Shown here one piece after another: positions 51,516 to 63,754 of a DNA stretch of 64,000 bases (positions are counted from its first letter, which is position 1; each line of letters begins with the position of its first letter). Origin of the DNA: Sphingomonas sp. JUb134 (GTDB lineage: Bacteria > Pseudomonadota > Alphaproteobacteria > Sphingomonadales > Sphingomonadaceae); NCBI RefSeq assembly GCF_004341505.2, contig NZ_SLYP02000001.1, positions 941,001 through 1,005,000 on the forward strand. Reading direction: 5' to 3'. The position numbers and the translations under genes are program-made. The notes beneath the pieces were generated by a model, which was not told where the DNA came from, did no database searches, and saw only the letters and a program-made list of their open reading frames with translations.

Positions 51516-52520
51516 TCAAGCATCGGCGGGAAGATCCGCCTCGGCATAGCGCCGGGCGATGACGGCGCAGGCGAGCAGCTGGAGCTGGTGGAAGATCATC
51601 AGCGGCAGTATCAGCGCGCCGACCTGGGCTGCCGGGAACAGCACGCCCGCCATGGGCACGCCCGAGGCGAGGCTCTTCTTCGAACCGCAGAAGACAATCG
51701 CGATCTCGTCCGCGCGCGAGAAACCGAGGCGGCGCGCCAGCGTACGGGTGGCGAACAGCACCACCGCGAGCAGCAGGCAGCAGACGATCGTGACCAGCAC
51801 CAGCTGCCAGGCGGGGACGCGGTGCCAGAGCCCCTCGATCACCGCGGCGCTGAAGGCAGTGTAGACGACGAGCAGGATCGAGCCGCGGTCGACCGTGGAG
51901 ACCAGCGGCTTGTGCCGTTCGATGAAGCCGCCGACGAGCGGGCGGGCGAGATGGCCGACGATGAAGGGGAGCAGCAGCTGGAGCGCGATCTCCTCGATGG
52001 CGGCAAGCGAGTCGCCGCCGCTCGCGGATACGCCCATCAGCAGCGCGACGAGCACGGGCGTGATGAAGATGCCGGCGATGTTGGAGAGGGATGCGCTGCA
52101 CACCGCCGCCGGGACGTTGCCGCGGGCTATGGCGGTGAAGGCGATCGAGGACTGGACCGTGGAGGGCAGGAGCGTGAGGAACAGCAACCCTTGCGCGAGT
52201 GCCGGGGAGAGGAACCAGGACGAGCTCCACTCGACGCCCAGCCCCAGCAGCGGGAACATCAGGAAGGTGGCGGCGAACACGACCAGGTGCAGCCGCCAGG
52301 CGGTGAGGCCGGCGACGATCGCGGCGCGCGACAGCTTGGCGCCGTGGAGGAAGAAGAGCAGCGCGATCGCCGCCTGCGTCAGCAGGGCAAAGCCCTCCGC
52401 CACGCGGCCGCGGCAGGGAAGCAGCGTCGCCACCACCACCGTCGCGATCAGCAGCATGCTGTAGCCGTCGATGCTGGCGGTGAGTCGGCGGAAGAGCGGC
52501 GGGCGGGGCAAGGACGTCAT
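51516..52520 (-). CDS. SBF-like (bile acid:sodium symporter superfamily) transporter
   Basis: A 334-residue protein with about nine to ten hydrophobic segments, typical of the SBF-like/YfeH group. Landmarks are FFLHGAKLSRAAIVAG, FLTLLPSTVQSSIAFT, SLSNIAGIFITPVLVALL, and IVFCGSKKSLASGVPMAGVL. The substrate is not predictable; members transport organic anions with sodium. A strong GGGAGG precedes the ATG. Its 5' end faces the GTA cluster across a 177-base region that carries the LexA-like site. Confidence 0.88.
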   Translation of the reverse strand: MTSLPRPPLFRRLTASIDGYSMLLIATVVVATLLPCRGRVAEGFALLTQAAIALLFFLHGAKLSRAAIVAGLTAWRLHLVVFAATFLMFPLLGLGVEWSSSWFLSPALAQGLLFLTLLPSTVQSSIAFTAIARGNVPAAVCSASLSNIAGIFITPVLVALLMGVSASGGDSLAAIEEIALQLLLPFIVGHLARPLVGGFIERHKPLVSTVDRGSILLVVYTAFSAAVIEGLWHRVPAWQLVLVTIVCCLLLAVVLFATRTLARRLGFSRADEIAIVFCGSKKSLASGVPMAGVLFPAAQVGALILPLMIFHQLQLLACAVIARRYAEADLPADA

Positions 52521-52592
52521 GCGGCCTCCCTACCGGAGAGCAGCGGAGGCGCCGAGTAGAATCCTGCGACGAACCAAACAGGTACAAAGCGC

Positions 52593-52629
52593 TTGACATC
52601 GTCACGCTGATGTGGAACAAGACAGGAAC
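52593..52629 (+). promoter_or_regulatory. Candidate LexA-box promoter upstream of the GTA cluster
   Basis: TTGACA (52593-52598) is followed by GAACAAGACAGGAAC (52615-52629), an exact GAAC-N7-GAAC direct repeat, the reverse-complement form of the alphaproteobacterial LexA consensus GTTC-N7-GTTC. With a 17-base spacing the -10 hexamer would be AACAAG, inside the box; this is a poor -10 match. The site lies 69 bases before the first cluster gene and 95 bases from the divergent transporter gene. Function is inference. Confidence 0.5.
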
Positions 52630-52697
52630 GCTGAGGAATTGCGGGCGGGGCTGAAGCCGAAGGGCTGCGGCCCCGTCTTGCGTTCGGGGGAGGGGCG

Positions 52698-53195
52698 ATG
52701 GCGCGGCAGATCGGGACGGGATCGAAAGCAGCATCGGGAACGGGGCGCACCCGCTCGATCGGGGTAGGGGTGCAAAGCGCGTTCCTGGACCACCTGGCGG
52801 CGACCGGCAGCGTGGAGGCAGCCGCCGAGGCGGTCGCGATCGCGCCGCTGCAGGCCTATGCCGCGTGCCGGAGCGACGCCGGCTTTGCCGAGGGCTGGCG
52901 CGCCGCGCTGCGGGTCGGATACGACCGGCTGGAGGCGATGCTGATCGAGCGCACGGCCGCGGTGCTGACCGGCGCGTCGAACGATCCGCTGGAAACGCCG
53001 GACGTGCTGTTCGCGCTGCGGCTGATCGAGCGGCAGCGCGAGGCGGAAGCGCCGAGCGGCAAGCGCGCCAGGGCAGGCGCGGGCGCGGCGGACAAGACGG
53101 ATGCGGCGATCCTCAAGCGGCTGGCGATGCTGAGCAAGCGCCATGCCGCCGAGGAGGCGCGGGCGCGCCGGACCCAGGAGGGGGGCGATGCGTGA
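52698..53195 (+). CDS. GTA small terminase-like protein (g1 position)
   Basis: 165 residues at the head of the GTA cluster. It is mostly helical, with a DNA-binding-like start (GVQSAFLDHLAATGSVEAAA, then EAVAIAPLQAYAACRSD) resembling a helix-turn-helix, then LEAMLIERTAAVLTG and DVLFALRLIERQ, and a basic, Ala-rich C-terminus. This fits a small terminase (RcGTA g1-like), which would recruit DNA to the packaging motor. ATG 52698 follows GGGGGAGGGG. Its stop overlaps the large terminase start (GTGA). The call rests largely on position. Confidence 0.72.
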   Translation: MARQIGTGSKAASGTGRTRSIGVGVQSAFLDHLAATGSVEAAAEAVAIAPLQAYAACRSDAGFAEGWRAALRVGYDRLEAMLIERTAAVLTGASNDPLETPDVLFALRLIERQREAEAPSGKRARAGAGAADKTDAAILKRLAMLSKRHAAEEARARRTQEGGDA

Positions 53196-54502
53196 GCCCC
53201 GCGGAAGAACGCGAGGCGGCGATGCGGGCGCTGGCCCGTGCCGACCCGGCCACGCAGGCGGCTACGCTGGCGATCCTGTCGCCGGAGCAGCGGCGTGAGC
53301 TGCTGCATCGCTGGGAGCGCTGGGCGCATCCCGGCCAGCTGCCGACCGCGGAAGGCTGGCGGATCTGGCTGATCCTGGCCGGCCGCGGCTTTGGCAAGAC
53401 GCGGGCGGCGTCCGAGTGGGTGTCCGAGTTCGCGCGCAGCCACCCCCAGGCGCGGATCGCGCTGGTGGGGGCGACGCTGGACGACGTGCACCGGGTGATG
53501 GTGGGCGGCGAGGGCGGGTTGCAGGCGAGCGCGCACGACGACGAGCCGATGCTGTGGAAGGGAGGCGTGCTGCACTTCGCCTCGGGGGCAAAGGCGTTCG
53601 CCTATTCGGCGGAGGCGCCCGAGAAGCTGCGCGGACCCGAGCACCATGCCGGCTGGTGCGACGAGATCGCCAAGTGGCGCCTGGGCGACGCGGCCTGGGA
53701 CAATCTGATGATGGGAATGCGGCTGGGAACGCATCCGCAGCTGGTGGTGACGACCACGCCCAAGCCGGGCGCGCTGCTGCGGCGGGTGCGGACGCTGCCG
53801 GGCGTGCACGAGACGCACGGCCGGACGGTGGACAACCCGCACCTGCCGGCAAGCTTCGTCGAGGCGATGGCCGCGCAATATGCGGGCACGCGGCTGGGGC
53901 GGCAGGAGCTCGACGGGGAGTTGCTGGAGGATGTGCAGGGAGCACTGTGGACGCGCGGGCTGATCGAGCGGTGCCGGGTAGCGGCCGCGCCCGAACTGGT
54001 GCGGGTGGTGGTGGGCGTCGACCCGCCCGCGAGTGCGGAAGGGGATGCGTGCGGGATCGTGGCGGCGGGCCTGGGCGGGGACGGGCGCGGATACGTGCTG
54101 GAGGATGCGAGTGCCTCCGGACTGACGCCCGACGGTTGGGCCCGAGCGGTGGCAGCGTGCGCCGCGCGCCACGATGCGGATCGGGTGGTGGCAGAGGCGA
54201 ATCAGGGCGGCGCGATGGTGGAGACGGTGCTGCGCACGGCCGAGGCGGCGCTGCCGGTGCGGCTGGTGCATGCCTCGCGCGGCAAGTCGGCACGGGCCGA
54301 GCCGATCGCCGCCCTCTATGAACGCGGCCGGATCGCGCATGCCGGCAGCTACCCGGCGCTGGAGGACGAGCTGTGCGGGCTGGTGGCGGGCGGCGGCTAT
54401 GAGGGTCCCGGCCGGTCCCCCGACCGTGCCGACGCGCTGGTGTGGGCAATGGACGAGCTGATGCTCGGCCGCCGCGGGGCTGCCTCGGTACGGGGGCTGT
54501 GA
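53192..54502 (+). CDS. GTA large terminase / DNA-packaging ATPase
   Basis: The motor that fills capsids with host DNA (RcGTA g2). 436 residues: Walker A in LAGRGFGKTRAASEW, a Walker B-type segment in HHAGWCDEIAKW, and a C-terminal RNase-H-like nuclease with acidic residues in VVVGVDPPASAEGDACG, DRVVAEANQGG and SPDRADALVWAMDEL. In GTAs the motor packs host DNA by headful cutting. The start is GTG 53192, overlapping the previous stop. The next cluster gene on this strand is 250 bases away; a minus-strand gene lies between. Confidence 0.93.
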   Translation: MSPAEEREAAMRALARADPATQAATLAILSPEQRRELLHRWERWAHPGQLPTAEGWRIWLILAGRGFGKTRAASEWVSEFARSHPQARIALVGATLDDVHRVMVGGEGGLQASAHDDEPMLWKGGVLHFASGAKAFAYSAEAPEKLRGPEHHAGWCDEIAKWRLGDAAWDNLMMGMRLGTHPQLVVTTTPKPGALLRRVRTLPGVHETHGRTVDNPHLPASFVEAMAAQYAGTRLGRQELDGELLEDVQGALWTRGLIERCRVAAAPELVRVVVGVDPPASAEGDACGIVAAGLGGDGRGYVLEDASASGLTPDGWARAVAACAARHDADRVVAEANQGGAMVETVLRTAEAALPVRLVHASRGKSARAEPIAALYERGRIAHAGSYPALEDELCGLVAGGGYEGPGRSPDRADALVWAMDELMLGRRGAASVRGL

Positions 54503-54509
54503 GCCTGGA

Positions 54510-54725
54510 TCAGGTGAAGAGCGACAGGAACAGGAGCACGAAGGCGGCGGCGCAGACGCTGCCGCCGATGGTGAGGTGGCGGGTGGCGGAGCGGGCATAG
54601 GGCTCGCCCCCGGCGGGGCGGACCTGCTGGCGGCGGATGCGCCAGCCGGCCCAGACGAACATGCCGCCCAGCCAGAACAGCATCAGCGATGCGGGGAACA
54701 GGGCGAAGTGTGCGCTTTGCGGCAT
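54510..54725 (-). CDS. Small two-helix membrane protein on the opposite strand inside the GTA cluster
   Basis: 71 residues, no family recognised. Two membrane segments (ASLMLFWLGGMFVWAGW and LTIGGSVCAAAFVLLFLSLF) are joined by a basic linker (RIRRQQVRPAGGEPYARS). The ATG at 54725 has an excellent AAGGAG ribosome site seven bases upstream. It faces against the terminase and lies back-to-back with the portal gene, and the plus strand has no cluster gene here, so it is not a shadow. It could act in the host membrane during GTA production or release, which is a guess from position and topology. Confidence 0.75.
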   Translation of the reverse strand: MPQSAHFALFPASLMLFWLGGMFVWAGWRIRRQQVRPAGGEPYARSATRHLTIGGSVCAAAFVLLFLSLFT

Positions 54726-54754
54726 CCAGACTCTCCTTGGCGGAGGAAGCTAGC

Positions 54755-55936
54755 ATGAAATGGTTCGGCAGGAAGAGCCTGGGCGCACAGGGCACACAGG
54801 GCACACAGGGCGCACAGGGTGCACAGGGCGCGGCGGGCGAGGGACGGCGGCCGGCGCTGTCGCCGGGCGGATCGGTCGCGGCGCTGGGCAGCTGGCCAAC
54901 GAGCTACGAGGCGCAGGTGCGCGCGGGTTATCTGGAGAATGCGATCGCGCAGCGCGCGGTGCGGATGGTGGCCGAGGGCGTCGCGGCCGCGCCGGTCACG
55001 GGCGTGGACCCGGAGCTGGTGCGGCTGGTGTGCCGCCGCTCGGCGGGCCAGGTGCTGGTGGAGACGATCGCGGCGCAGCTGCTGCTGCACGGCAATGCCT
55101 TCGTGCAGTTGCTGGACGATGGGCGCGGCGGGGTGGGCGAGCTCTATGCGCTTCGGCCCGAGCGGGTGAGCGTGGAGCCGGACGCCAATGGCTGGCCGGT
55201 GGCGTTCCGGTACCGAGTGGGGGCGCAGGTGCAGCAGCTGGCGGCGGAGGATGCCCGGGGGCGGGCGGCGGTGGTGCACATCAAGGCGTTCCATCCGCTC
55301 GACGATCATTATGGGCTGGGGTGCCTGGGGGCGGCGGCGGGAGCGATCGCGGTCCACAATGCGGCGGCGCGCTGGAACAAGGCGCTGCTCGACAATGCGG
55401 CGCGGCCCTCGGGGGCGCTGGTCTATGACCCCGGCGACGGCGGCGTGCTGTCGCGCGACCAGTTCGATCGGTTGCGCGCGGAGATGGAAGCGGGCTTTGC
55501 GGGTGCCGCCAACGCGGGGCGGCCGATGCTGCTCGAAGGCGGGCTCAAGTGGCAGGCGATGAGCCTGACGCCGGCCGACATGGATTTCAACGGGCTGAAG
55601 GCACAGGCGGCGCGGGAGATCGCGCTCGCGTTCGGGGTGCCGCCGATGCTGCTCGGGCTGCCCGGCGACAACACCTACGCCAATTATCGCGAGGCCAATC
55701 GCGCGCTGTGGCGGCTGTCGATCCTGCCGCTTGCCGAGCGGATCCTGGCGGAGCTGAGCCAAGGATTGGCCGGGCATTTCGCGGAGCCGGCGCTGTCGGT
55801 GGACCTCGATCGGGTGCCGGCGCTGGCGGAGGACCGCGAGCGGCTGTGGGGCCAAGTGAGCGGGGCGGAGTTCCTGACGCGCGAGGAGAAGCGGGCGATG
55901 GTGGGGGTGGGGCCGGTGGTCGGCGCCGGCCTCTAA
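54755..55936 (+). CDS. GTA portal protein (HK97 family)
   Basis: Forms the dodecameric channel at the capsid vertex (RcGTA g3). 393 residues with SYEAQVRAGYLENAIAQRAV, LLLHGNAFVQLLDD, ARPSGALVYDPGDGG, and the conserved tail IALAFGVPPMLLGLPGDNTY ANYREANRALW. Residues 10-27 form an unusual collagen-like run of Gly-X-Gln triplets, coded by a 9-base tandem repeat. ATG 54755 follows GGAGGAAG. It is downstream of the minus-strand membrane gene and converges with a second one. Confidence 0.93.
   Translation: MKWFGRKSLGAQGTQGTQGAQGAQGAAGEGRRPALSPGGSVAALGSWPTSYEAQVRAGYLENAIAQRAVRMVAEGVAAAPVTGVDPELVRLVCRRSAGQVLVETIAAQLLLHGNAFVQLLDDGRGGVGELYALRPERVSVEPDANGWPVAFRYRVGAQVQQLAAEDARGRAAVVHIKAFHPLDDHYGLGCLGAAAGAIAVHNAAARWNKALLDNAARPSGALVYDPGDGGVLSRDQFDRLRAEMEAGFAGAANAGRPMLLEGGLKWQAMSLTPADMDFNGLKAQAAREIALAFGVPPMLLGLPGDNTYANYREANRALWRLSILPLAERILAELSQGLAGHFAEPALSVDLDRVPALAEDRERLWGQVSGAEFLTREEKRAMVGVGPVVGAGL
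54782..54835 (+). repeat. 9-base tandem repeat in the portal gene
   Basis: Five 9-base units of the GGCGCACAG type (GGCGCACAG, GGCACACAG twice, GGCGCACAG, GGTGCACAG) followed by a degenerate sixth. They code Gly-Ala-Gln or Gly-Thr-Gln. Such repeats can expand or contract by slippage without a frameshift. Confidence 0.88.
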
Positions 55937-56088
55937 CCTCGCAGGGGCAGGGTGCAGGTGAGGGTGGTCCGTTCGAAGCGGCCGCCCTGGGCCGCGCATT
56001 GCTTGCCGCGGACGAAGGGCAGCACGAACGCGATCGAGACCAGGGCCGCAAGTGCGGCGAACAGGACGATGCGGAGCCGGCGACGCAT
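55933..56088 (-). CDS. Tiny membrane protein on the opposite strand between portal and DUF6127 genes
   Basis: 51 residues; no family recognised. A basic start (MRRRLRIVLFAALAALVSI) leads into one membrane segment (about residues 6-26). The short outside part holds two cysteines (KQCAAQGGRFERTTLTCTLP) spaced like a disulfide hairpin, a pattern seen in small exported proteins of alphaproteobacteria. It overlaps the portal stop by four bases, tail to tail. There is no strong ribosome site, so this call is weaker than for the 54510 gene. Confidence 0.5.
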   Translation of the reverse strand: MRRRLRIVLFAALAALVSIAFVLPFVRGKQCAAQGGRFERTTLTCTLPLRG

Positions 56089-56116
56089 GGCCGGGACGTA
56101 ACAGGCGGAGGCGGCG

Positions 56117-56425
56117 ATGGACAATGCGCAGGTGCTGGCGCAGCTGATGGGCCAGGCGCGGCAGGATGGTGCCGACCTGGCGACGCTGCGCGCGATGGTG
56201 GAGGAAGCGGGCGAGGTCGGCGCGACGCGTGCGCTCACCCGGCTGGGGCTGGAGGACGCGGCCGCCCATGGCGACATGAAGGAGCTGCGCGAACTGCTGG
56301 CCGCCTGGCGCGACGCCAAGCGATCGGCGGCGCGCGCGGCGATCGGCTGGGTGGTGCGGATGCTGCTTGCGCTGGTGCTGGTGGGCGTGGCGGTGAAGAC
56401 CGGTTTTGGCGCGTGGGTGCGATGA
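56117..56425 (+). CDS. DUF6127 family protein of the GTA cluster
   Basis: A 102-residue protein found between portal and protease genes in GTA clusters. It has a helical N-terminus (VLAQLMGQARQDGADLATLR), the segment EVGATRALTRLGLEDAAAHG with ELRELLAAWRDAKRSA, and one C-terminal membrane segment (VVRMLLALVLVGVAVKTGF). The role is unknown; the membrane segment suggests it acts in the producing cell rather than in the particle. It shares ATGA with the prohead protease gene. Confidence 0.82.
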   Translation: MDNAQVLAQLMGQARQDGADLATLRAMVEEAGEVGATRALTRLGLEDAAAHGDMKELRELLAAWRDAKRSAARAAIGWVVRMLLALVLVGVAVKTGFGAWVR

Positions 56426-56796
56426 GCGTGCGCTTTGCCGGCTATGCCGCGATCTTCGACGTGCCGGATCGCGGCGGCGACGTGGTGCGTGCGGGTGCTT
56501 TTGCTGGCTCCGGGCCGGTGCCGCTGCTTTGGCAGCACCGGGGAGCGCCGGTCGGACGGATCGAGCAGCTGGCGGAGGACAGCCGGGGCCTGCGCGTCAT
56601 CGGGCGAGTGGAGCTGCCGGAGCTTGCCCAACTGGTTCGGGACGGCGCGCTGGGTGGGCTGTCGTTCGGGTATCGCGTGCAGGCGGCGCGGCACGGGCGG
56701 TGGCGCGAGCTGGAGCGGCTGGACCTGATCGAGGTGAGCCTGGTGGCGGTGCCGATGCAGCCGCTGGCGTGGGTGCATGCGGTGGCGCCCGGGTGA
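56422..56796 (+). CDS. GTA prohead protease (HK97 family)
   Basis: Matures the capsid by cleaving scaffold and capsid (RcGTA g4). At 124 residues it is short for the family but has its core: SVRFAGYAAIFDVPDRGGD, the catalytic His in LLWQHRGAPVGRIEQ, the Ser in GALGGLSFGYRV, and the strand LDLIEVSLVAVPMQP. The start lies in an ATGA overlap with the DUF6127 gene. A terminator-like hairpin follows 26 bases downstream, before the capsid gene. Confidence 0.9.
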   Translation: MSVRFAGYAAIFDVPDRGGDVVRAGAFAGSGPVPLLWQHRGAPVGRIEQLAEDSRGLRVIGRVELPELAQLVRDGALGGLSFGYRVQAARHGRWRELERLDLIEVSLVAVPMQPLAWVHAVAPG

Positions 56797-56822
56797 AGGT
56801 GCAGAGTTTTGAAACGTGGTGA

Positions 56823-56853
56823 GGGCGTCCCGGGTGGGGCGCCCTTTTCTTTT
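56823..56853 (+). terminator. Intrinsic terminator or attenuator between prohead protease and capsid genes
   Basis: Arms GGGCGTCCC (56823-56831) and GGGGCGCCC (56836-56844) form a nine-bp stem with one G-U pair and a GGGT loop, followed at once by TTTTCTTTT (56845-56853). It is a complete intrinsic terminator structure 13 bases before the capsid start. Confidence 0.85.
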
Positions 56854-56866
56854 GCGGGAGACGGTG

Positions 56867-57925
56867 ATGATCGAGATCAAGGCAGATGCGCTGGAAGTGA
56901 GCTTCGCAGGCGTGGAGGGTGCGGGGACGCCGGCGGCGCGGCCGATGCTGACGGGGGCGGCGGCCCGGCCGGGTGGCGCCGCGTTCGAGGGCTTCGTGCG
57001 CAGTGGCGCAACCCTGGAGATGAAGGCGTTCACCGGCACGACCGGGGAGAGCGGCGGCTATGCCGTGCCGACCGAAATCGACCGGCAGATCGACACGCTG
57101 CTGAAGTCGGCGAGCCCGATCCGTGCCATCGCCAACGTCGTGAAGGTCGGGAGTGCCGGCTATCGCAAGCTGGTGACGAGCGGCGGCACGCCGTCGGGCT
57201 GGGCGTCGGAAACGGCGGCGCGGCCGGAGACGGCGACGCCGACCTTCCATGAGGTGTCGCCGCCGATGGGCGACCTCTATGCCAATCCGGCGGCGAGCCA
57301 GGCGATGCTGGACGATGCCGCCTTCGACGTGGAGGAATGGCTGGCGGGCGAGATCGCGGCCGAGTTCGCGGCGGCCGAGGGGCGGGCGTTCGTCGATGGC
57401 AGTGGCATCAACCAGCCCAAGGGCTTCCTGCGCGAGCCGGTCTCCACGGCGGGCGATGCGGCGCGGGCGTTCGGGACCTTGCAGTATCTGCCGAGCGGGG
57501 AGGCCGGCGATTTCGGCAGCGAGCCGCAGGACCGGCTGATCGACCTAGTGCAGAGCCTGCGCGCGCCGTACCGCCAGGGGGCGGTGTTCGTGATGAATGC
57601 GGCGACCTCGACCCGCATCCGCAAGCTCAAGACGGCGGACGGCGCCTTCCTGTGGCAGCCGGGACTCGTGTCCGGCCAGCCCGATACGCTGCTCGGCTAT
57701 CCGGTGGTGGAAGCGGAGGAGATGCCGGACATCGCGCCGGGCAGCCTGTCGATCGCGTTCGGCAACTTCCGGCTGGGGTATCTGATCGCGGAGCGGCAGG
57801 AGACGCAGATCCTGCGCGATCCCTATTCGAACAAGCCGTTCGTGCACTTCTACGCGACCAAGCGCGTGGGCGGGCAGGTGAGCAATTCGGAGGCGATCAA
57901 GCTGATGAAGTTCGCCGCGGCCTGA
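56867..57925 (+). CDS. GTA major capsid protein (HK97 fold)
   Basis: Forms the icosahedral head (RcGTA g5). 352 residues, beginning with a short N-terminal region likely removed on maturation, then MKAFTGTTGESGGYAVPTEI, SPIRAIANVVKVGSAGYRK, GWASETAARPETATPTFHEV, DLYANPAASQAMLDDAAFDV, and IAFGNFRLGYLIAERQETQI. ATG 56867 follows GGGAG. The gene is bracketed by two strong hairpins, suggesting a separate mRNA segment for the most abundant virion protein. Confidence 0.95.
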   Translation: MIEIKADALEVSFAGVEGAGTPAARPMLTGAAARPGGAAFEGFVRSGATLEMKAFTGTTGESGGYAVPTEIDRQIDTLLKSASPIRAIANVVKVGSAGYRKLVTSGGTPSGWASETAARPETATPTFHEVSPPMGDLYANPAASQAMLDDAAFDVEEWLAGEIAAEFAAAEGRAFVDGSGINQPKGFLREPVSTAGDAARAFGTLQYLPSGEAGDFGSEPQDRLIDLVQSLRAPYRQGAVFVMNAATSTRIRKLKTADGAFLWQPGLVSGQPDTLLGYPVVEAEEMPDIAPGSLSIAFGNFRLGYLIAERQETQILRDPYSNKPFVHFYATKRVGGQVSNSEAIKLMKFAAA

Positions 57926-57933
57926 GCGACCCT

Positions 57934-57960
57934 TCCGGCGCGGGGAGAGCCCGCGCCGGA
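57934..57960 (+). terminator. Strong hairpin just after the capsid gene
   Basis: Perfect 11-bp stem TCCGGCGCGGG (57934-57944) with CCCGCGCCGGA (57950-57960), five-base loop, followed by CCCTTCTG. The weak T content suggests partial termination or a 3' stabiliser rather than a full stop. Confidence 0.65.
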
Positions 57961-57991
57961 CCCTTCTGCCCAACAGTGACGGAGCTGCCCC

Positions 57992-58543
57992 ATGGAGACG
58001 CCACCCATCCCGGAGGCGGCGATCGCTGCCGCCTGCGCGGCCGCGCTTGCGCACCTGCGCATGGCGGCGACCCACGAGCAGGCGGTGCTGGAGCAGGCCG
58101 CCGCGACCGCCTTTGCCGTGTGCGAGACGTTCACGGGCCATGCGCTGATCGCGCGCGAATGGCAGGCGGTGGTGCCGGCGACCGCGGGCTGGACGCCGCT
58201 GCCGGTGCAGCCGGTGACGGCGATCACCCGGGTCGACGGCCTGCCGGCGGAGGGCAGCGCCTTTCCCCTGCCGGCCGGGAGCTATGCGATCGACCTGACC
58301 GCCGATGGTGTCGGCTGGGTGAAGGCGATGCTCCCCGGCAGCGCGGGGCGGCTGCGCATCGGCTTTCGTGCGGGGCTGGCCGAGGGTTGGGAAACGCTGC
58401 CGGCGCCGATTGCGCAAGGCATGGTGCTGCTGATCGCGCATTTGTTTGCAAGCGGCAGCGCGGGCGGGGAGCCGCCCGCTGCGGTGGCGGCGCTGTGGCG
58501 GCCGTGGCGGCGACTGCGGCTGGCGCCGGAGGTGCGGCGATGA
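57992..58543 (+). CDS. GTA head-tail connector protein (gp6/phiE125 gp8-like)
   Basis: The adaptor ring below the portal (RcGTA g6). 183 residues with helices at the N-terminus (IAAACAAALAHLRMAATHEQ), ETFTGHALIAREWQAVVPA, a beta part (LPVQPVTAITRVDGLP), and a C-terminal helix (IAQGMVLLIAHLFAS). It shares ATGA with the next small gene. It follows the capsid gene after a hairpin-containing 66-base gap. Confidence 0.88.
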   Translation: METPPIPEAAIAAACAAALAHLRMAATHEQAVLEQAAATAFAVCETFTGHALIAREWQAVVPATAGWTPLPVQPVTAITRVDGLPAEGSAFPLPAGSYAIDLTADGVGWVKAMLPGSAGRLRIGFRAGLAEGWETLPAPIAQGMVLLIAHLFASGSAGGEPPAAVAALWRPWRRLRLAPEVRR

Positions 58544-58755
58544 GGGCGCGGCTGCTGGCGCGGGGCGAGGCGGCGGGCGCGCATGCGGTCGCGGCGGCGG
58601 TGGCGCGGATCGGCGAGGCTGCGCGGGAAGGTGCCGCCGGGGTGCGGGGCATCCGGGTCGAGAGCGACGACCGATCGGTGACGATCGAAGGGCGTGGGCT
58701 GTGGCGGCGCCGGATCGAGGATGCGCGGGTGCGCTGGCTGGGGGCGGAGCGATGA
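58540..58755 (+). CDS. Small protein in the stopper (g7) position of the GTA cluster
   Basis: 71 residues, joined to its neighbours by ATGA overlaps on both sides. The sequence is a helix (AAVAARIG-type Ala/Arg-rich region) followed by a beta-like part, GIRVESDDRSVTIEGRGLW, and RWLGAER. By position it matches the RcGTA head-closure (stopper) gene, but it is shorter and not recognisably similar. It might resemble the HK97 gp10-like family; homology is unproven. Confidence 0.7.
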   Translation: MRARLLARGEAAGAHAVAAAVARIGEAAREGAAGVRGIRVESDDRSVTIEGRGLWRRRIEDARVRWLGAER

Positions 58756-59153
58756 GCGCGCAAACGGTGCTGGGCGAGGCGCTGGTGGCGGCCCTCAAGG
58801 CGCATGCGGGCGTCGCGCGGGTGGTGACGGCGGTGTTCGACGCGCCACCGGTGCGCGCGGCGCGACCCTATGCGGAGGTGGCGGAGGCGCTGCTCACCGA
58901 CTGGAGCACCAAGGACATGGCGGGCCGGGAAGGCCGGATCACGATCGTGCTGCGCGACGCGGGCGAGCGGCCGGTGCGGCTGCGCGTGCTGGCGGGCGAG
59001 GTGGATGCGGCCGTCGAGGCGCTGCCGCGCGACTTGGGCGAGGGCTGGCGGATCGCGAGCCTGGTGCCGGTGCGCAGCCGCATCGTGCGCGAGGGCGAAG
59101 GGCTGTGGGCCGGCACCAACGAATATCGGGTGCGCATGCTGCGGATGCAGTGA
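58752..59153 (+). CDS. GTA DUF3168 protein (tail terminator)
   Basis: Caps the tail tube at its head-proximal end (RcGTA g8). 133 residues with the DUF3168 layout: LGEALVAALKAHAGVARVV, PYAEVAEALLTDWSTKDMAG, GRITIVLRDAGERPVRLRVL, and the ending LWAGTNEYRVRM. It starts inside the previous stop (ATGA) and ends 15 bases before the tail tube gene. Confidence 0.88.
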   Translation: MSAQTVLGEALVAALKAHAGVARVVTAVFDAPPVRAARPYAEVAEALLTDWSTKDMAGREGRITIVLRDAGERPVRLRVLAGEVDAAVEALPRDLGEGWRIASLVPVRSRIVREGEGLWAGTNEYRVRMLRMQ

Positions 59154-59168
59154 CGAAGGAGGCAAGAC

Positions 59169-59576
59169 ATGGCGGCGGAAAAGGGAAGCGCGTTCCTGCT
59201 GAAGGTAGGCGACGGCCAGGTGCCACCCGGCTTCACCACGGTGGCGGGGCTGCGCACGACGCAGCTGTCGATCAACGGCGAGGCGGTGGCGATCACGTCC
59301 AAGGATTCGGGCGGGTGGCGCGAGCTGCTGTCGGGTGCCGGTGTGCGATCGGTCAGTGTGTCGGGGGCGGGGGTGTTCACCGGATCGGCGGCGGAGGCTC
59401 GGCTGAAGGCGAACGCGCTGGCGGGCACGATCGACGATTATCGCCTGAGCTTCGAGAGCGGCGAGACGATGACCGGGCGCTTCCTGCTGACCCGGCTCGA
59501 CTATGCCGGCGATTACAACGGCGAGCGCAGCTACACGCTGGCGCTGGAAAGCTCGGGCGCGGTGGTGTCGGCATGA
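59169..59576 (+). CDS. GTA major tail tube protein
   Basis: Builds the short non-contractile tail tube (RcGTA g9, TP901-1-like major tail protein). 135 residues: GSAFLLKVGDGQVPPGFTTV, INGEAVAITSKDSGGWRELL, SVSGAGVFTGSAAEARLKAN, and SGETMTGRFLLTRLDYAGDY. A separate strong ribosome site GGAGG precedes its ATG, unlike the overlap-coupled neighbours, consistent with a need for high expression. Confidence 0.92.
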   Translation: MAAEKGSAFLLKVGDGQVPPGFTTVAGLRTTQLSINGEAVAITSKDSGGWRELLSGAGVRSVSVSGAGVFTGSAAEARLKANALAGTIDDYRLSFESGETMTGRFLLTRLDYAGDYNGERSYTLALESSGAVVSA

Positions 59577-59890
59577 GCGGGGACCCTGCCAATCCGGTGC
59601 GCGGCGAGGCGGAATTGCGGGTGGCGGGCGAGCGGCTGGTGCTGCGGCCGAGCTTTGCCGCGCTGGTAGCGGCGGAGGGCGAGCTGGGGCCGTTGTTCGC
59701 GCTGGTGGAGCGGGCGGCGGCGGGCAAGCTGGCGCTCGGCGAGCTGGTGGCGCTGTTCTGGCACTGCCTGCGCGAACGGCCCGAGGCGCTGACCCGCGAG
59801 GCGCTGGGCGAGGCGGTGGTTGCCGGAGGCTTGGCGGCGGCGACGCCGGCGTTGCGGCAGTTGCTGGCGCAGATCCTGGGCGGGCGATGA
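59573..59890 (+). CDS. GTA gp10-family tail-assembly chaperone
   Basis: 105 residues in the RcGTA g10 position. AELRVAGERLVLRPSFAAL, LAAAE-type helices around FALVERAAAGKLALGELVAL, and WHCLRERPEALTREALGEA match the Phage_TAC_11/GTA_gp10 layout. It probably guides tail assembly with the next gene. The start overlaps the tail tube stop (ATGA). Confidence 0.87.
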   Translation: MSGDPANPVRGEAELRVAGERLVLRPSFAALVAAEGELGPLFALVERAAAGKLALGELVALFWHCLRERPEALTREALGEAVVAGGLAAATPALRQLLAQILGGR

Positions 59891-60087
59891 GCGAGCGCTT
59901 CGCCGACGCGACGGTGCGATTGGCGGGGATGGCGGGGCTGTGGTTCGGCTGGAGCCCTGACGCCTTCTGGCGGGCTACCCCGGCCGAGCTTGGCGCGCTG
60001 GTGAAGGCGGCGGGCGGCGAAGCGGGCACGGCGCCGCCCGATGCGGGCACGCTTGCCCGGCTGATGGAGGCATTCCCCGATGGATGA
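59887..60087 (+). CDS. GTA phage tail-assembly chaperone (g10.1-like)
   Basis: 66 residues. WFGWSPDAFWRATPAELGAL is the hallmark of the small TAC_6 family that follows gp10 in GTA clusters. It should bind the tape measure during tail assembly. It starts inside the gp10 stop and overlaps the tape measure gene by eight bases. Confidence 0.87.
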   Translation: MSERFADATVRLAGMAGLWFGWSPDAFWRATPAELGALVKAAGGEAGTAPPDAGTLARLMEAFPDG

Positions 60088-60643
60088 GGAAATCGAGCGG
60101 CTGGTGGTGTCGGTGCGCGCCGATACCGCCGGCTTCGCGCGCGACGTGGCGGCGATGCAGAACAGCCTGGAGGGGCCGTTCGCGAGCGGCGTCGACCGCG
60201 CTGGCCGTGCTTTGGAGACGACGCTCGTACGGGCGGTGCGCAGCGGATCAATGGGCTTCGAGGACCTGGGGCGGATCGCCAACCAGGTGCTGGGCGAGAT
60301 CGCCGCGGGCGCGATGCGCAGCGGGCTCGACACGCTGCTGGGCGGAGCGGCGAGCGGGGGCGGGTTGCTGGGATCGTTGCTGGGGCTGGTGTCGGGCGCG
60401 CCGGGGCGGGCTACGGGCGGCCCGGTCAGCCCGCAGCGGCCTTATTGGGTCGGCGAGCGCGGGCCGGAGCTGTTCGTGCCCACCAGCAGCGGCAGCGTGG
60501 TGGCACCGCAAACCGGCGGCGGGCGAGACGTGCGGATCGCGATCTCGGTCCAGGCCGGGTCGGGAGACGCCCCGCGCGCGCTGGCCCAATCGAGCCGGCA
60601 GGTCGCGCGCGCGGTGAAGGCCGCGCTGGCGGACCTCGACTGA
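60080..60643 (+). CDS. GTA tail tape measure protein (short)
   Basis: 187 residues in the RcGTA g11 position. An N-terminal helical part (EEIERLVVSVRADTAGFARD) is followed by a Gly-rich hydrophobic stretch (LGGAASGGGLLGSLLGLVSG), and RPYWVGERGPELFVPTSSG with SVVAPQTGGG, which are typical ends of lambda-tape-measure-like proteins in GTAs. Tape measure length sets tail length, so the tail should be short. It overlaps the previous gene by eight bases. Confidence 0.85.
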   Translation: MDEEIERLVVSVRADTAGFARDVAAMQNSLEGPFASGVDRAGRALETTLVRAVRSGSMGFEDLGRIANQVLGEIAAGAMRSGLDTLLGGAASGGGLLGSLLGLVSGAPGRATGGPVSPQRPYWVGERGPELFVPTSSGSVVAPQTGGGRDVRIAISVQAGSGDAPRALAQSSRQVARAVKAALADLD

Positions 60644-60656
60644 GCGGGAGGGCTTC

Positions 60657-62945
60657 ATGGGATATTGGCTGGCGCGCACGCGGACCGTGCAGGCGGAGGA
60701 TGTGCTCACCCGCTTCGACCCGCGCTTCTGGACGGTGAACTTTCCGCGGCCGATGATGGCCTCGGTCGTGTCGAGGGCGCCCGATGCGCTGCGGGTGGAT
60801 GCCGTCTTCTACCGCAGGGACGATCTGGCGGGACTGATCTGGGAGTCGGAGGACCGGCACGACCACCCGTTGCTCGGCTATGCGACCGAGCGCGACTATC
60901 GCCGGTGTCGCCTGCGCTTCCGCTGGCGATCGGGCGGGGTGCGGCCGCTGGACGCGGTGCATGGGCCGGTGCTGACGATCGAGGGGCGCGACGCTGGGGG
61001 CACGCCGCGGGCCTGGTACGTGCGGCTGTGGAATTATGCCTCCGGCACGCCCGAGGACGCGGTGGTGGAGATCGACTTCGCCACCGCGATCGGCGGGTTC
61101 GAACTTCCTCCGGACGCGGACCCGGTCTGGGCCGGGGACGTCGACCGCATGTTCGTGTCGCTGGTGGCGCCGGACTATGATGGCGAGGACGCGCTGCTGC
61201 CGGGGCCGGCGAAAGGATGGGTCGAGCTGTCCGAGATCGCCTGCGACGGTCCGGATTCGGTGCTGGCGATCGGAGCGCCGATCCTGCCCGAGCATGGCCT
61301 GTCGATCGCGAGCGGCTATGACGACAGCTATCACCTGACGCCGGCCCGGCTGCTGCGCAACGCGCTGCACCTGGGGTATCGCGGCAGCATCGTCCATTAT
61401 GTCGGGATGAGCCACTATTTCCGGCTCGAGGCGAACGGCGGGGGCCTGTACGCGAGCCTGGCAGGGGGCGTGCTCAACACACCGTGCGTGGCGTGGCACC
61501 GGCATTTCGCCGCGGAGGCCAAGGCGCTCGGCTATGGCGTGATCTGGTCGCTGTCGTACGAGCTGCTCGACCAGCATTGCTGGGGCGATTGGAAGCAGCG
61601 CGCAGGCGACGGATCCCCGGCGCTGACCGGGTGGGAGCCGCCGTCGGCGCTGCTCTCGCCGGCGCATGGCGGCGCGATGGCGTATCTTCAGCAGGTGGCG
61701 CAGGCGTTCGTGCGGCTGGCGATCGAAGCGGGGCTCCTGGTCCGGTTCCAGGTCGGCGAGCCGTGGTGGTGGGTGATGCCGGACGGGCGGCCGTGCCTGT
61801 ACGACGCGGCCGCCCAGGCGCTGCTCGATCCGGTCGAGATCCCGAGCGTGCGAGGGCCGCTCGACGACGCGCAGACGGCGACGCTCGACCGGGCCGGTGC
61901 GGTGCTGGCGGCGTCGACGGCTGCGCTGACGGACGCGGTGCGGCAGGTGGCACCGGAGGCGGAGACGCTGCTGCTCGCCTATCTGCCGACAGTGCTCGAT
62001 GCCGCCGCGCCCGAGCTCAAGCGCGCGAACCTGCCGATCGGCTGGGCCTCACCCGCGTTCGACGTGCTCCAGCTGGAGGATTACGACTGGGCGGCCGTCG
62101 GCAATGTCGCGGCGACCGCGCGCGGGATCGCGGCGGCCGAGGCGCGGCTGGGCTATCCGCCCGAGCGCCAGCAGTATTTCGCCGGCTTCGTGCTGCGTCC
62201 GGAAGATGCCGGACAGTGGCAGGCGATCGACTGGGCTGCGGAGACGGCGCGGGCACGTGGCGTAACGGGCACCTTCATCTGGGCACTGCCGCAGGTGATC
62301 CGCGACGGCTTCGTGCATTTCGACGAGGGAGAGGATGCGATGCAGGCGTTCGACGACGTGCGCTTTCCGCTGGCGCTGGGGCGAGAGGCCGAGGTGGCGC
62401 CGGAGCTGTCGACCGCGATCGTCACCAGCGCGGGTGGCGCCGAGAAGCGGAACGCGGACTGGGCGCAGCCGCGGACCCGCTACGATGTGGGGCCGGGTGT
62501 GCGATCGGAGGCGGACATCGCGACGCTGCTCGCCTTTTTCCGCGCGCGGATGGGGCCGGCGCGCGGGTTCCGGCTGACGGATCCCTTCGACAACAGTTCC
62601 GGCGAGGATGTCAGCCCCGAAGACCAGGTGATCGGGGTCGGAGACGGCATCACGACGCGCTTCCCGCTCCTCAAGCACTATGGCGAGGTGGCGCGGCGGA
62701 TCACGCGGCCGGTGGCGGGCAGCGTCCGGGTGGCCGTGGACGGGATCGAAACGCACGGCTTCTCGCTCGATTCGGGCGGGATCGTCGCACTCGACCTTGC
62801 CCCGAACCGCGGAGCGGTGGTGACGGCCGGGTTCCGCTTCGACGTGCCGGTGCGCTTCGCCGAGGATCGGCTGGCGGTAAACCGGGCGACCTTCCTGGCC
62901 GGCGCCGCGCCTTCGGTGCCGCTGATCGAGGTGCGCGAGGCATGA
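60657..62945 (+). CDS. GTA distal tail protein: DUF2460 domain with a large N-terminal glycoside-hydrolase-like region
   Basis: 762 residues; the RcGTA counterpart g12 is only about 210. Residues from about 564 to the end are DUF2460 (FDDVRFPLALGREAEV, AIVTSAGGAEKRNADWAQ, RYDVGPGVRSEADIATLLAF, GFRLTDPFDNSSG). The first 560 residues are extra: a beta-rich opening (MGYWLARTRTVQAEDV, DHPLLGYATERDYRRCRLRF), then alternating strands and helices resembling a TIM barrel, with ASGYDDSYHLTPARLL, VIWSLSYELLDQHCWGDW, VGEPWWWVM (Glu368, possible catalytic acid) and VLQLEDYDWAAVGN. It may bind or degrade surface glycans. The frame is continuous, so it is one protein. Confidence 0.88.
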   Translation: MGYWLARTRTVQAEDVLTRFDPRFWTVNFPRPMMASVVSRAPDALRVDAVFYRRDDLAGLIWESEDRHDHPLLGYATERDYRRCRLRFRWRSGGVRPLDAVHGPVLTIEGRDAGGTPRAWYVRLWNYASGTPEDAVVEIDFATAIGGFELPPDADPVWAGDVDRMFVSLVAPDYDGEDALLPGPAKGWVELSEIACDGPDSVLAIGAPILPEHGLSIASGYDDSYHLTPARLLRNALHLGYRGSIVHYVGMSHYFRLEANGGGLYASLAGGVLNTPCVAWHRHFAAEAKALGYGVIWSLSYELLDQHCWGDWKQRAGDGSPALTGWEPPSALLSPAHGGAMAYLQQVAQAFVRLAIEAGLLVRFQVGEPWWWVMPDGRPCLYDAAAQALLDPVEIPSVRGPLDDAQTATLDRAGAVLAASTAALTDAVRQVAPEAETLLLAYLPTVLDAAAPELKRANLPIGWASPAFDVLQLEDYDWAAVGNVAATARGIAAAEARLGYPPERQQYFAGFVLRPEDAGQWQAIDWAAETARARGVTGTFIWALPQVIRDGFVHFDEGEDAMQAFDDVRFPLALGREAEVAPELSTAIVTSAGGAEKRNADWAQPRTRYDVGPGVRSEADIATLLAFFRARMGPARGFRLTDPFDNSSGEDVSPEDQVIGVGDGITTRFPLLKHYGEVARRITRPVAGSVRVAVDGIETHGFSLDSGGIVALDLAPNRGAVVTAGFRFDVPVRFAEDRLAVNRATFLAGAAPSVPLIEVREA

Positions 62946-63754
62946 CGGGCTGGCTCGAGGGTGCCCTCACCACGACCACCTTGTGCTGGCGGCTGGAGCG
63001 CATCGACGGCGTCACGATCGGCCTGACGGCGCATGATCGCGACGTAACCGTGGAGGGCCTGCGTTATCGCGCCGCGCCGGGCATGACCCCGTCCGCCATC
63101 CGCCGCGGCGACCGGATGGATGCCGACGACATGGAGGCAAGCGGCCCCCTCAGCATGGACGCGATCGGCGAGACCGACCTGCTCGCCGGGCGGTGGGATG
63201 GCGCGCGGATCGCCGTGTTTGCGGTCGATTGGACGAGGCCCACGGAACCGTTGCTGCTGGGCGAGGGGCGATTGGGCGCTGTCGAGACGGCGGACGGTGC
63301 GTTCACCGCGGAGCTGCGTGGCGCCGCGTTCGCGCTGGAACAGGCGGTGGTGGAGGAAACCTCACCCGGGTGCCGGGCGCACCTGGGGGATCGGCGCTGC
63401 CGCGTCCCCATGGCCGGCAGGCGGCGGTTCGCGCGCGTGGTCGCATCGGAAGGGCGGCAGCTGACGCTCGACCGGGTGGAGCCGGCCGCGGATGCCTATG
63501 GCGCAGGCCGGTTGCGCTGGTTCGGCGGCGCCAATGCGGGGCTGGAGTCGGCGATCGCCGCGTCCGATGGCGCGACCCTGACGCTGGAGCGCGTGCCGCC
63601 GCTGCCCGTCACAGGAGGCGAGCTGCTGGAGCTGGTCGAAGGGTGCGACAAGAGGCTGGAGACCTGTGCCGGCCGCTTCGCCAACGCAGTCAACTTCCGC
63701 GGCGAACCCTATCTGCCGGGGATCGACCTGCTCACCCGCTATCCCGGCGCATGA
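62942..63754 (+). CDS. GTA DUF2163 / phage BR0599-like tail protein
   Basis: The tail hub protein (RcGTA g13). 270 residues: DUF2163 part with TTTTLCWRLERIDGVTIGLT, HDRDVTVEGLRYRAAPGMTP, and GRLGAVETADGAFTAELRGA; the C-terminal BR0599-like part has cysteines in ETSPGCRAHLGDRRCRVPM and VEGCDKRLETCAGRFANAVN, which in RcGTA hub proteins bind an iron-sulfur cluster. It shares ATGA with both neighbours. Confidence 0.92.
   Translation: MTGWLEGALTTTTLCWRLERIDGVTIGLTAHDRDVTVEGLRYRAAPGMTPSAIRRGDRMDADDMEASGPLSMDAIGETDLLAGRWDGARIAVFAVDWTRPTEPLLLGEGRLGAVETADGAFTAELRGAAFALEQAVVEETSPGCRAHLGDRRCRVPMAGRRRFARVVASEGRQLTLDRVEPAADAYGAGRLRWFGGANAGLESAIAASDGATLTLERVPPLPVTGGELLELVEGCDKRLETCAGRFANAVNFRGEPYLPGIDLLTRYPGA

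Follow-up and report, generated by a model that had tools for sequence, protein, structure and literature searches.

The flagged stretch at 52593 to 52629 of the window (the whole 64-kb piece of DNA that was analysed) is, by comparison with related loci, probably the core promoter from which the GTA head-tail cluster is transcribed. This promoter is common across the family that shares it, which is probably the Sphingomonadaceae. The exact LexA box in the stretch reads as a one-base variant of the conserved promoter bases, and if LexA binds it, as it may well do, this would be a local extra and not the GTA switch of the family. From its distribution, we infer that a palindrome, AACC-N5-GGTT, is a family-wide GTA operator, probably bound by a divergently encoded XRE repressor.

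The box, GAACAAGACAGGAAC (= gaacaagacaggaac), is an exact GAAC-N7-GAAC at 52615-52629 on the forward strand. It is located in the 177 bp that separate the first GTA cluster gene from a divergently oriented SBF-like transporter gene (Table 1), and 16 bases lie between it and TTGACA. The initial annotation had described such a site before the first cluster gene, with TTGACA 16 bases upstream, and the sequence confirms it. There is a single exact copy in the window. The same annotation allowed for one to two chance matches per 64 kb, a fair estimate: dinucleotide shuffles of the window contain 0.89 copies on average, and at least one copy is present in 54 of 100 shuffles.

Table 1. Positions of the promoter elements and genes in the window
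Feature	Position	Strand	Basis or remark
SBF-like transporter gene, outside the GTA system	51516..52520	-	PF13593, E 1.3e-98
Putative palindromic operator copy AACC-N5-GGTA	52572..52584		Begins 21 bp before TTGACA
-35 element TTGACA	52593..52598	+	Sequence; common to relatives (TTGAC or TTGAAA was the census entry condition)
Near-palindromic spacer ACA-K-CG-N3-CGCT-G-W, candidate GafZ-binding element	52596..52610	+	
Predicted -10 element AACAAG	52616..52621	+	Column profile and hexamer census
Conserved start/initially transcribed region GAACGCTGAGGAAT	52626..52639	+	Putative start site
GC-rich leader hairpin, then TCTTG only	52646..52675	+	Fold z-score -2.99
First cluster gene g1, terminase small subunit-like	52698..53195	+	phrog_4044, E 6.7e-6
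Terminase large subunit gene, start unsettled	53195..54502	+	Terminase_6N and 6C within open frame 52865-54502
Remaining RcGTA-type head-tail cluster in the window	54689..63754	+	

The GTA cluster and its promoter

The cluster is of the RcGTA head-tail type, with terminase, portal, protease, capsid, GTA-gp10 and tail genes in order. The terminase small subunit-like gene has no Pfam match. Downstream of the large terminase are genes for the portal, protease (prohead), capsid, tail completion, tail tube and GTA-gp10 proteins, and also for the tail assembly chaperone, tail sheath/DUF2460 and baseplate hub. A small DUF6127 gene (56117-56425) is found in the portal/protease interval. The large terminase is present in 167 of 249 family genomes (E ≤ 1e-60). 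By this protein, the closest named relatives are Sphingomonas desiccabilis CP1D (97%) and Sphingomonas sp. PL-96 (93%), with the next at 69%.

A total of 150 GTA loci were compared, 80 of them named loci and 70 from a search of the 249 family genomes (the 70 upstream regions read, own genome included). Entry to the core promoter census required at most four mismatches to the window's own 16-mer together with TTGAC or TTGAAA, a condition that biases conservation upward within the 16 columns and leaves the columns outside them unbiased. The core promoter is present in 135 of the 150 loci. With the 15 core-less loci left out and five repeats of the same promoter sequence collapsed, 130 distinct promoters remain.

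Upstream of the -35 element, AACC-N5-GG (with at most one mismatch in six bases) is found 20-22 bp before TTGACA in 116 of the 130 promoters and is absent in 14. Its start is 21 bp before TTGACA in 103 promoters, 20 bp in 11 and 22 bp in two. The spacer ACA-K-CG-N3-CGCT shows a conservation that is unusual for a spacer, though the census admitted loci by similarity there. Its pairs 8/12 and 5/15 are kept in all 130 promoters and pair 7/13 in 115, in columns (0-15) where the entry condition introduces a bias. The full 6-bp palindrome arms are found in 19 of 130, and the spacer sequence is unlike the Caulobacter ZBE.

The -10-like hexamers in the relatives are TACATA, CACAAA, TACAAA, CACATA and TAGAGA. 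The first GAAC of the box would overlap this weak -10 element, and the second GAAC would correspond to the conserved start region. A hairpin with a T-containing tail is present in 99 of 130 leaders, compared to 50 expected from mononucleotide shuffles; the hairpin of the window has a poor U-tract. Neither a strict sigma-70 promoter scan nor a strict terminator scan of this region of the window gave a match.

In a sample of the class (385 genomes), the cluster promoter (at most two mismatches) is found in 12 genomes, including all five family members. The seven other matches have two mismatches each and were judged to be due to chance. The same judgement was made for the single additional match to the cluster promoter pattern AACC-N5-GG-N10-TTGAC in the own genome, which is GC-rich.

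Regulator genes and the shared palindrome

The own genome contains one DUF6456 gene (C1:1193729-1194118, E 2.1e-42), referred to here as gafZ-like. DUF6456 is the domain of GafA/GafZ homologues (PMC9765227 and PMC9638019 for gafA), and it is found in 220 of the 249 family genomes. The gafZ-like product has 158 aa from the chosen start and matches DUF6456 alone. A 187-aa XRE protein (L171 768-1331; G000 C1:1192996-1193559) is encoded divergently from this gene, and a divergent XRE gene is located beside the gafZ-like gene in all 30 loci compared (the best 30 of 220 genomes). In the own-genome neighbourhood of the gafZ-like gene, no GafY gene stood out.

The XRE protein has HTH_3/HTH_31 matches and no Peptidase_S24 match, and no invariant or nearly invariant Ser or Lys is found in its C-terminal part among 56 homologues. 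Self-cleavage is unlikely for these two reasons. For the structure comparison, an AlphaFold model (mean pLDDT 89.2, pTM 0.65) of P0001, a homologue with 98% identity, was used. Its best match is the lambda-186 hybrid repressor (7jvt), followed by LexA chains, with low whole-chain TM scores of 0.34-0.57. The model suggests a CI/LexA-like fold, and the sequences show no catalytic pair. This is the architecture of RogA, and the gene is called rogA-like for its architecture, not for orthology. In five loci (L177, L184, L185, L186 and L197), 260-314 bp separate the rogA-like start from the conserved gafZ-like part, and this gap may hold an extra N-terminal part of the gafZ-like protein or a small intervening gene.

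The strict palindrome AACC-N5-GGTT is located between the rogA-like and gafZ-like genes in 23 of the best 30 loci (of 220), often close to the start codon of the XRE (rogA-like) gene. The copy in the own genome is CAAACC-ATATC-GGTTTG. TCCTACA is found in 28 of these 30 intervals (best 30 of 220). It forms a second conserved element beside the palindrome at the gafZ-like promoters (L171 1348-1380; L172-L200), possibly a -35-like or activator element. At the holin and endolysin promoters, TCCTACA and the palindrome are in the other order.

Another copy in the own genome begins 41 bp upstream of the probable ATG of an endolysin gene (GH108/PG_binding_3). A search of 59 genomes for GH108 found the domain in 20 genomes and 29 loci, of which 22 have a readable motif (two are probably one gene). 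The strict palindrome is just upstream in seven of the 22, and one more has a single mismatch. It starts some 40-50 bp upstream of the probable start codon and lies between TTTCCT or TGTCCT (TTGACA in one case) and a TA-rich element.

The composite TCCTACA-N1-5-AACC-N5-GGTNA is present in 115 of 249 genomes, compared to six for the reversed control. Among the matches listed, 30 loci were analysed. Fifteen of them precede one protein cluster (GTA_holin_3TM in three of three tested), four a GH108 cluster (one of one tested), four terminase-small-like genes and seven other or unclear frames. The terminase-small-like genes behind this GTA accessory promoter are in L334, L355, L356 and L357 (phrog_4044 in three of three tested), and in one genome (G050) the terminase-small-like gene and the large terminase are on different contigs. 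The exact composite is absent from the own genome, and the palindrome at its cluster is imperfect (GGTA).

As background, the coding part of 80 GTA loci (279,186 bp) contains no AACC-N5-GGTT. The own genome has 21 copies, compared to 19 for the reversed pattern. Among these 21 places, the copy at the rogA-like/gafZ-like pair and six more in five stretches were examined, and three copies inside coding frames were dismissed. One copy is just before a squalene/phytoene synthase-like gene (L294 1488; G000 C1:1984287) and may be due to chance; a gene of this type appears in a published table on GTA-like codon trends (PMC9765227 Table 1). Another copy is at a GDSL lipase gene. The CtrA motif has the direct arrangement TTAA-N7-TTAA. 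A CtrA site was set aside for the palindrome, as its TAACC/GGTTA halves are inverted.

The LexA box

By the genes that it marks, the host LexA motif is GAAC-N7-GAAC. The initial annotation had named this motif as the alphaproteobacterial one, and a scan of the whole genome finds it at lexA, recA, dinB, an mmcB-like gene and others. One box is 14 bp before the lexA start (C1:1748876) and another is upstream of recA (C1:2036969). Further boxes are found at dinB (DNA polymerase IV; L004), a UvrD-like helicase gene (L066), two radical-SAM genes, two S24 peptidase-domain genes and a pair of SRAP genes. The MmcB-like DNA repair gene (L014) has two exact boxes, 32 bp apart. The genome contains 115 exact matches, compared to 60 for the reversed pattern, and both counts are slightly inflated because the ends of contigs C1 and C2 appear repeated. 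The same matches occur near both ends (C1 4640/3400005, C2 9031/397734), which suggests an untrimmed overlap of circular contigs. In the family, a LexA box with a lexA-like start pattern is present in 156 of 249 genomes, some of the matches being away from lexA.

A LexA matrix was built from 11 SOS-gene sites of the own genome, and 96 distinct matches, among those listed of the 115, were ranked with it (the called starts are rough). The GTA copy has a score of 19.56 and rank 7 of 96 among the matches listed. The leave-one-out scores of the 11 SOS sites are between 10.48 and 20.25. Of 70 sites within called frames, three reach the score of the GTA copy, and two of these are matrix-building sites. 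In its predicted quality, the sequence of the GTA copy is as good as a real LexA site.

At this register, the exact box is found in three of the 130 promoters, that of the own genome and those of the two relatives nearest to it. The most frequent forms of the first half-site are GTAC (47), GCAC (44) and TTAG (23), and the second half-site is GAAC in 99 of 130. The base that creates the box is A in the own genome and the two closest relatives only, and T or C in the others. Sphingomonas sp. Leaf10 (L210) carries GCACAAAACAGGAAC at this register in place of the exact box. As many as 69 of the 130 promoters have seven of the eight box letters, so that chance creation of a LexA box would be easy. 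In the three box-bearing species, the stretch that runs from the palindrome through the hairpin hardly varies, and the flanks differ. The box is therefore not separately kept in them, as the whole promoter block is conserved.

The initial annotation had suggested that the site, if real, would tie the cluster directly to DNA damage, and had named relatives with the same cluster and no site as the result that would speak against this. At this register, 127 of 130 promoters lack the exact box, which comes close to that result, and a conserved LexA operator was set aside as the general explanation. Of the claim, the host motif and the SOS-like score of the box are supported; LexA control as the purpose of the element is not.

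Exact GAAC-N7-GAAC is also observed at the upstream palindrome, at offset -22 from TTGACA, in seven other Sphingomonas promoters (L204, L206, L210, L213, L220, L221 and L227). These seven boxes have C at position 5, and the 11 SOS sites of the own genome all have A. Two forms among the seven have matrix scores of 13.5 and 14.8. Exact boxes are present in three of the 30 rogA-like/gafZ-like intervals as well (L172, L177 and L186; best 30 of 220), and those of L177 and L186 come from one genus and are at the likely ribosome-binding site. No box is found in the 3390-bp rogA-like/gafZ-like locus of the own genome. When the 256 four-letter words are ranked by N7 repeats in the promoters, ACAT/ATGT alone comes ahead of GAAC (counted with its complement). 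Such GAAC repeats are found in 10 of 130 promoters, compared to a mean of 0.6, and both registers overlap conserved promoter bases. The recurrent boxes may reflect repeated chance completion or occasional recruitment, and the data fit both.

Regulatory readings and known systems

The best explanation, and one that we consider probable, is a core promoter combined with an AACC-N5-GGTT operator of the XRE repressor and with GafZ-like activation. The XRE repressor, with its CI/LexA-like fold, would bind AACC-N5-GGTT and would silence the gafZ-like activator, the structural cluster and the lysis genes together. On release, the GafZ-like protein would load at the -35/-10 spacer and would assist the polymerase in getting through the leader hairpin. 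A further lock, placed by LexA on the -10 element and the start site, may exist in the S. desiccabilis clade. The palindrome-binding protein is taken to be the XRE repressor because of the gene order. The nearly constant spacing at which the palindrome precedes the cluster -35 would suit an activator too. The absence of the palindrome from 14 of 130 promoters, and of its strict form from seven of 30 rogA-like/gafZ-like intervals, also counts against this explanation, as do a spacer palindrome that is complete in only 19 of 130, a window hairpin without a good U-tract, the empty strict promoter and terminator scans, and an own genome that lacks the exact composite and has GGTA in its cluster palindrome. 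That AACC-N5-GGTT is an activator site, with a role like that of GafY or GafA, and not a repressor operator, is unlikely. The fixed distance to the -35 would agree with it, and GafA of Rhodobacter capsulatus binds the same three kinds of loci, namely GTA, gafA and lysis promoters (PMC6363796). On the other hand, the location of the endolysin palindrome between the TTTCCT/TGTCCT and TA-rich elements would be unusual for an activator, and at rogA-like genes the palindrome is often next to the start codon.

The readings with and without LexA binding concern the same 15 bases and compete with each other; neither competes with the promoter reading. A working operator, in which LexA would cover the -10 element and the start site and DNA damage would directly release GTA production in the clade, is a tentative reading, to which we give somewhat less than an even chance. 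Its position is that of a classic repressor, the motif is identical to that of the host, and the score (rank 7 of the 96 among the matches listed) is within the SOS range. The box is identical in the two closest relatives, its creating base being A in these three of 130 promoters only. Exact boxes occur at another register in seven Sphingomonas promoters and in three of 30 regulator intervals, and only ACAT/ATGT is ahead of GAAC in N7 repeats. Against it, 127 of 130 promoters have no exact box at this register and 69 are one base away from it, the box is conserved in the three species no more than the promoter block around it, two forms among the other seven boxes score only 13.5 and 14.8, and the regulator locus of the own genome has no box. 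That the match is a coincidence, without LexA binding in the cell, has about equal chances of being right and wrong. The 0.89 matches expected in the window would allow for it, and conserved promoter bases with one substitution explain the box. Nonetheless, every host consensus base is present and the score is SOS-like, and a protein that reads DNA alone would be expected to bind. A layered arrangement, with the S. desiccabilis-clade cluster brought under LexA by a single base change in the -10 element on top of the family-wide operator of the XRE repressor, is on the unlikely side. DNA damage itself would then release GTA production in this clade, and holin, endolysin, gafZ-like activator and structural cluster would all be silenced by one cleavage-deficient repressor of CI/LexA fold.

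The literature found on GTA regulation concerns Rhodobacter, Dinoroseobacter and Caulobacter, and GTA clusters are common in the present family. In the literature searched, the tie between LexA and GTA is already known, and the GTA promoter and operator of the family are apparently undescribed: no description was found in the open-access papers searched. A conserved promoter and an operator shared by activator, particle and lysis genes would offer a handle on the timing of GTA production and release. A promoter of this kind can easily acquire a LexA box, and damage-induced release can be tested with promoters that differ at one base.

In Caulobacter crescentus, GafZ binds a palindrome between the -35 and -10 elements of a GTA promoter that involves GafY, IHF and GafZ (PMC11150451). 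As in this organism, the present genome has an RcGTA-type cluster and a GafZ/DUF6456 homologue, and the promoter has a near-palindromic -35/-10 spacer that may correspond to the GafZ site and a possible need to pass a hairpin. The Caulobacter -35 element is degenerate (AATCAT) and needs GafY and IHF (PMC11150451), in contrast to TTGACA here. Moreover, the terminator in Caulobacter is after the first gene, whereas the hairpin here is before the first gene, and the spacer sequence is a different one.

RogA of C. crescentus is a repressor of the GTA activators, and has an XRE helix-turn-helix and a LexA/CI-like C-terminal part without catalytic residues (PMC9632790), like the rogA-like protein. 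RogA is reported to be enriched at gafYZ and CCNA_02002 only, with GGAA-N4-TTCC sites (PMC9632790). By comparison, the palindrome here is AACC-N5-GGTT and is also located at the structural cluster and the lysis genes. The GafA regulon of R. capsulatus is similar in that a single regulator connects the genes for the structure with the activator gene and the lysis cassette. There the connection is activation by GafA under CtrA and quorum sensing (PMC6363796), in contrast to the 158-aa DUF6456 protein and divergent XRE gene found here.

Links between LexA and GTA are also known from R. capsulatus and Dinoroseobacter shibae. LexA is reported to act through cckA in the former (Kuchinski 2016, cited in PMC9638019 and PMC6363796), and an in silico LexA site at the GTA cluster has already been reported for the latter (PMC6473078). 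Unlike the route through cckA, the match described here overlaps the core promoter, in one small clade. In sequence it is identical to the alphaproteobacterial LexA operator, an exact GAAC-N7-GAAC as at the host's own lexA and recA, but it differs from that operator in overlapping bases that are already conserved for promoter function.
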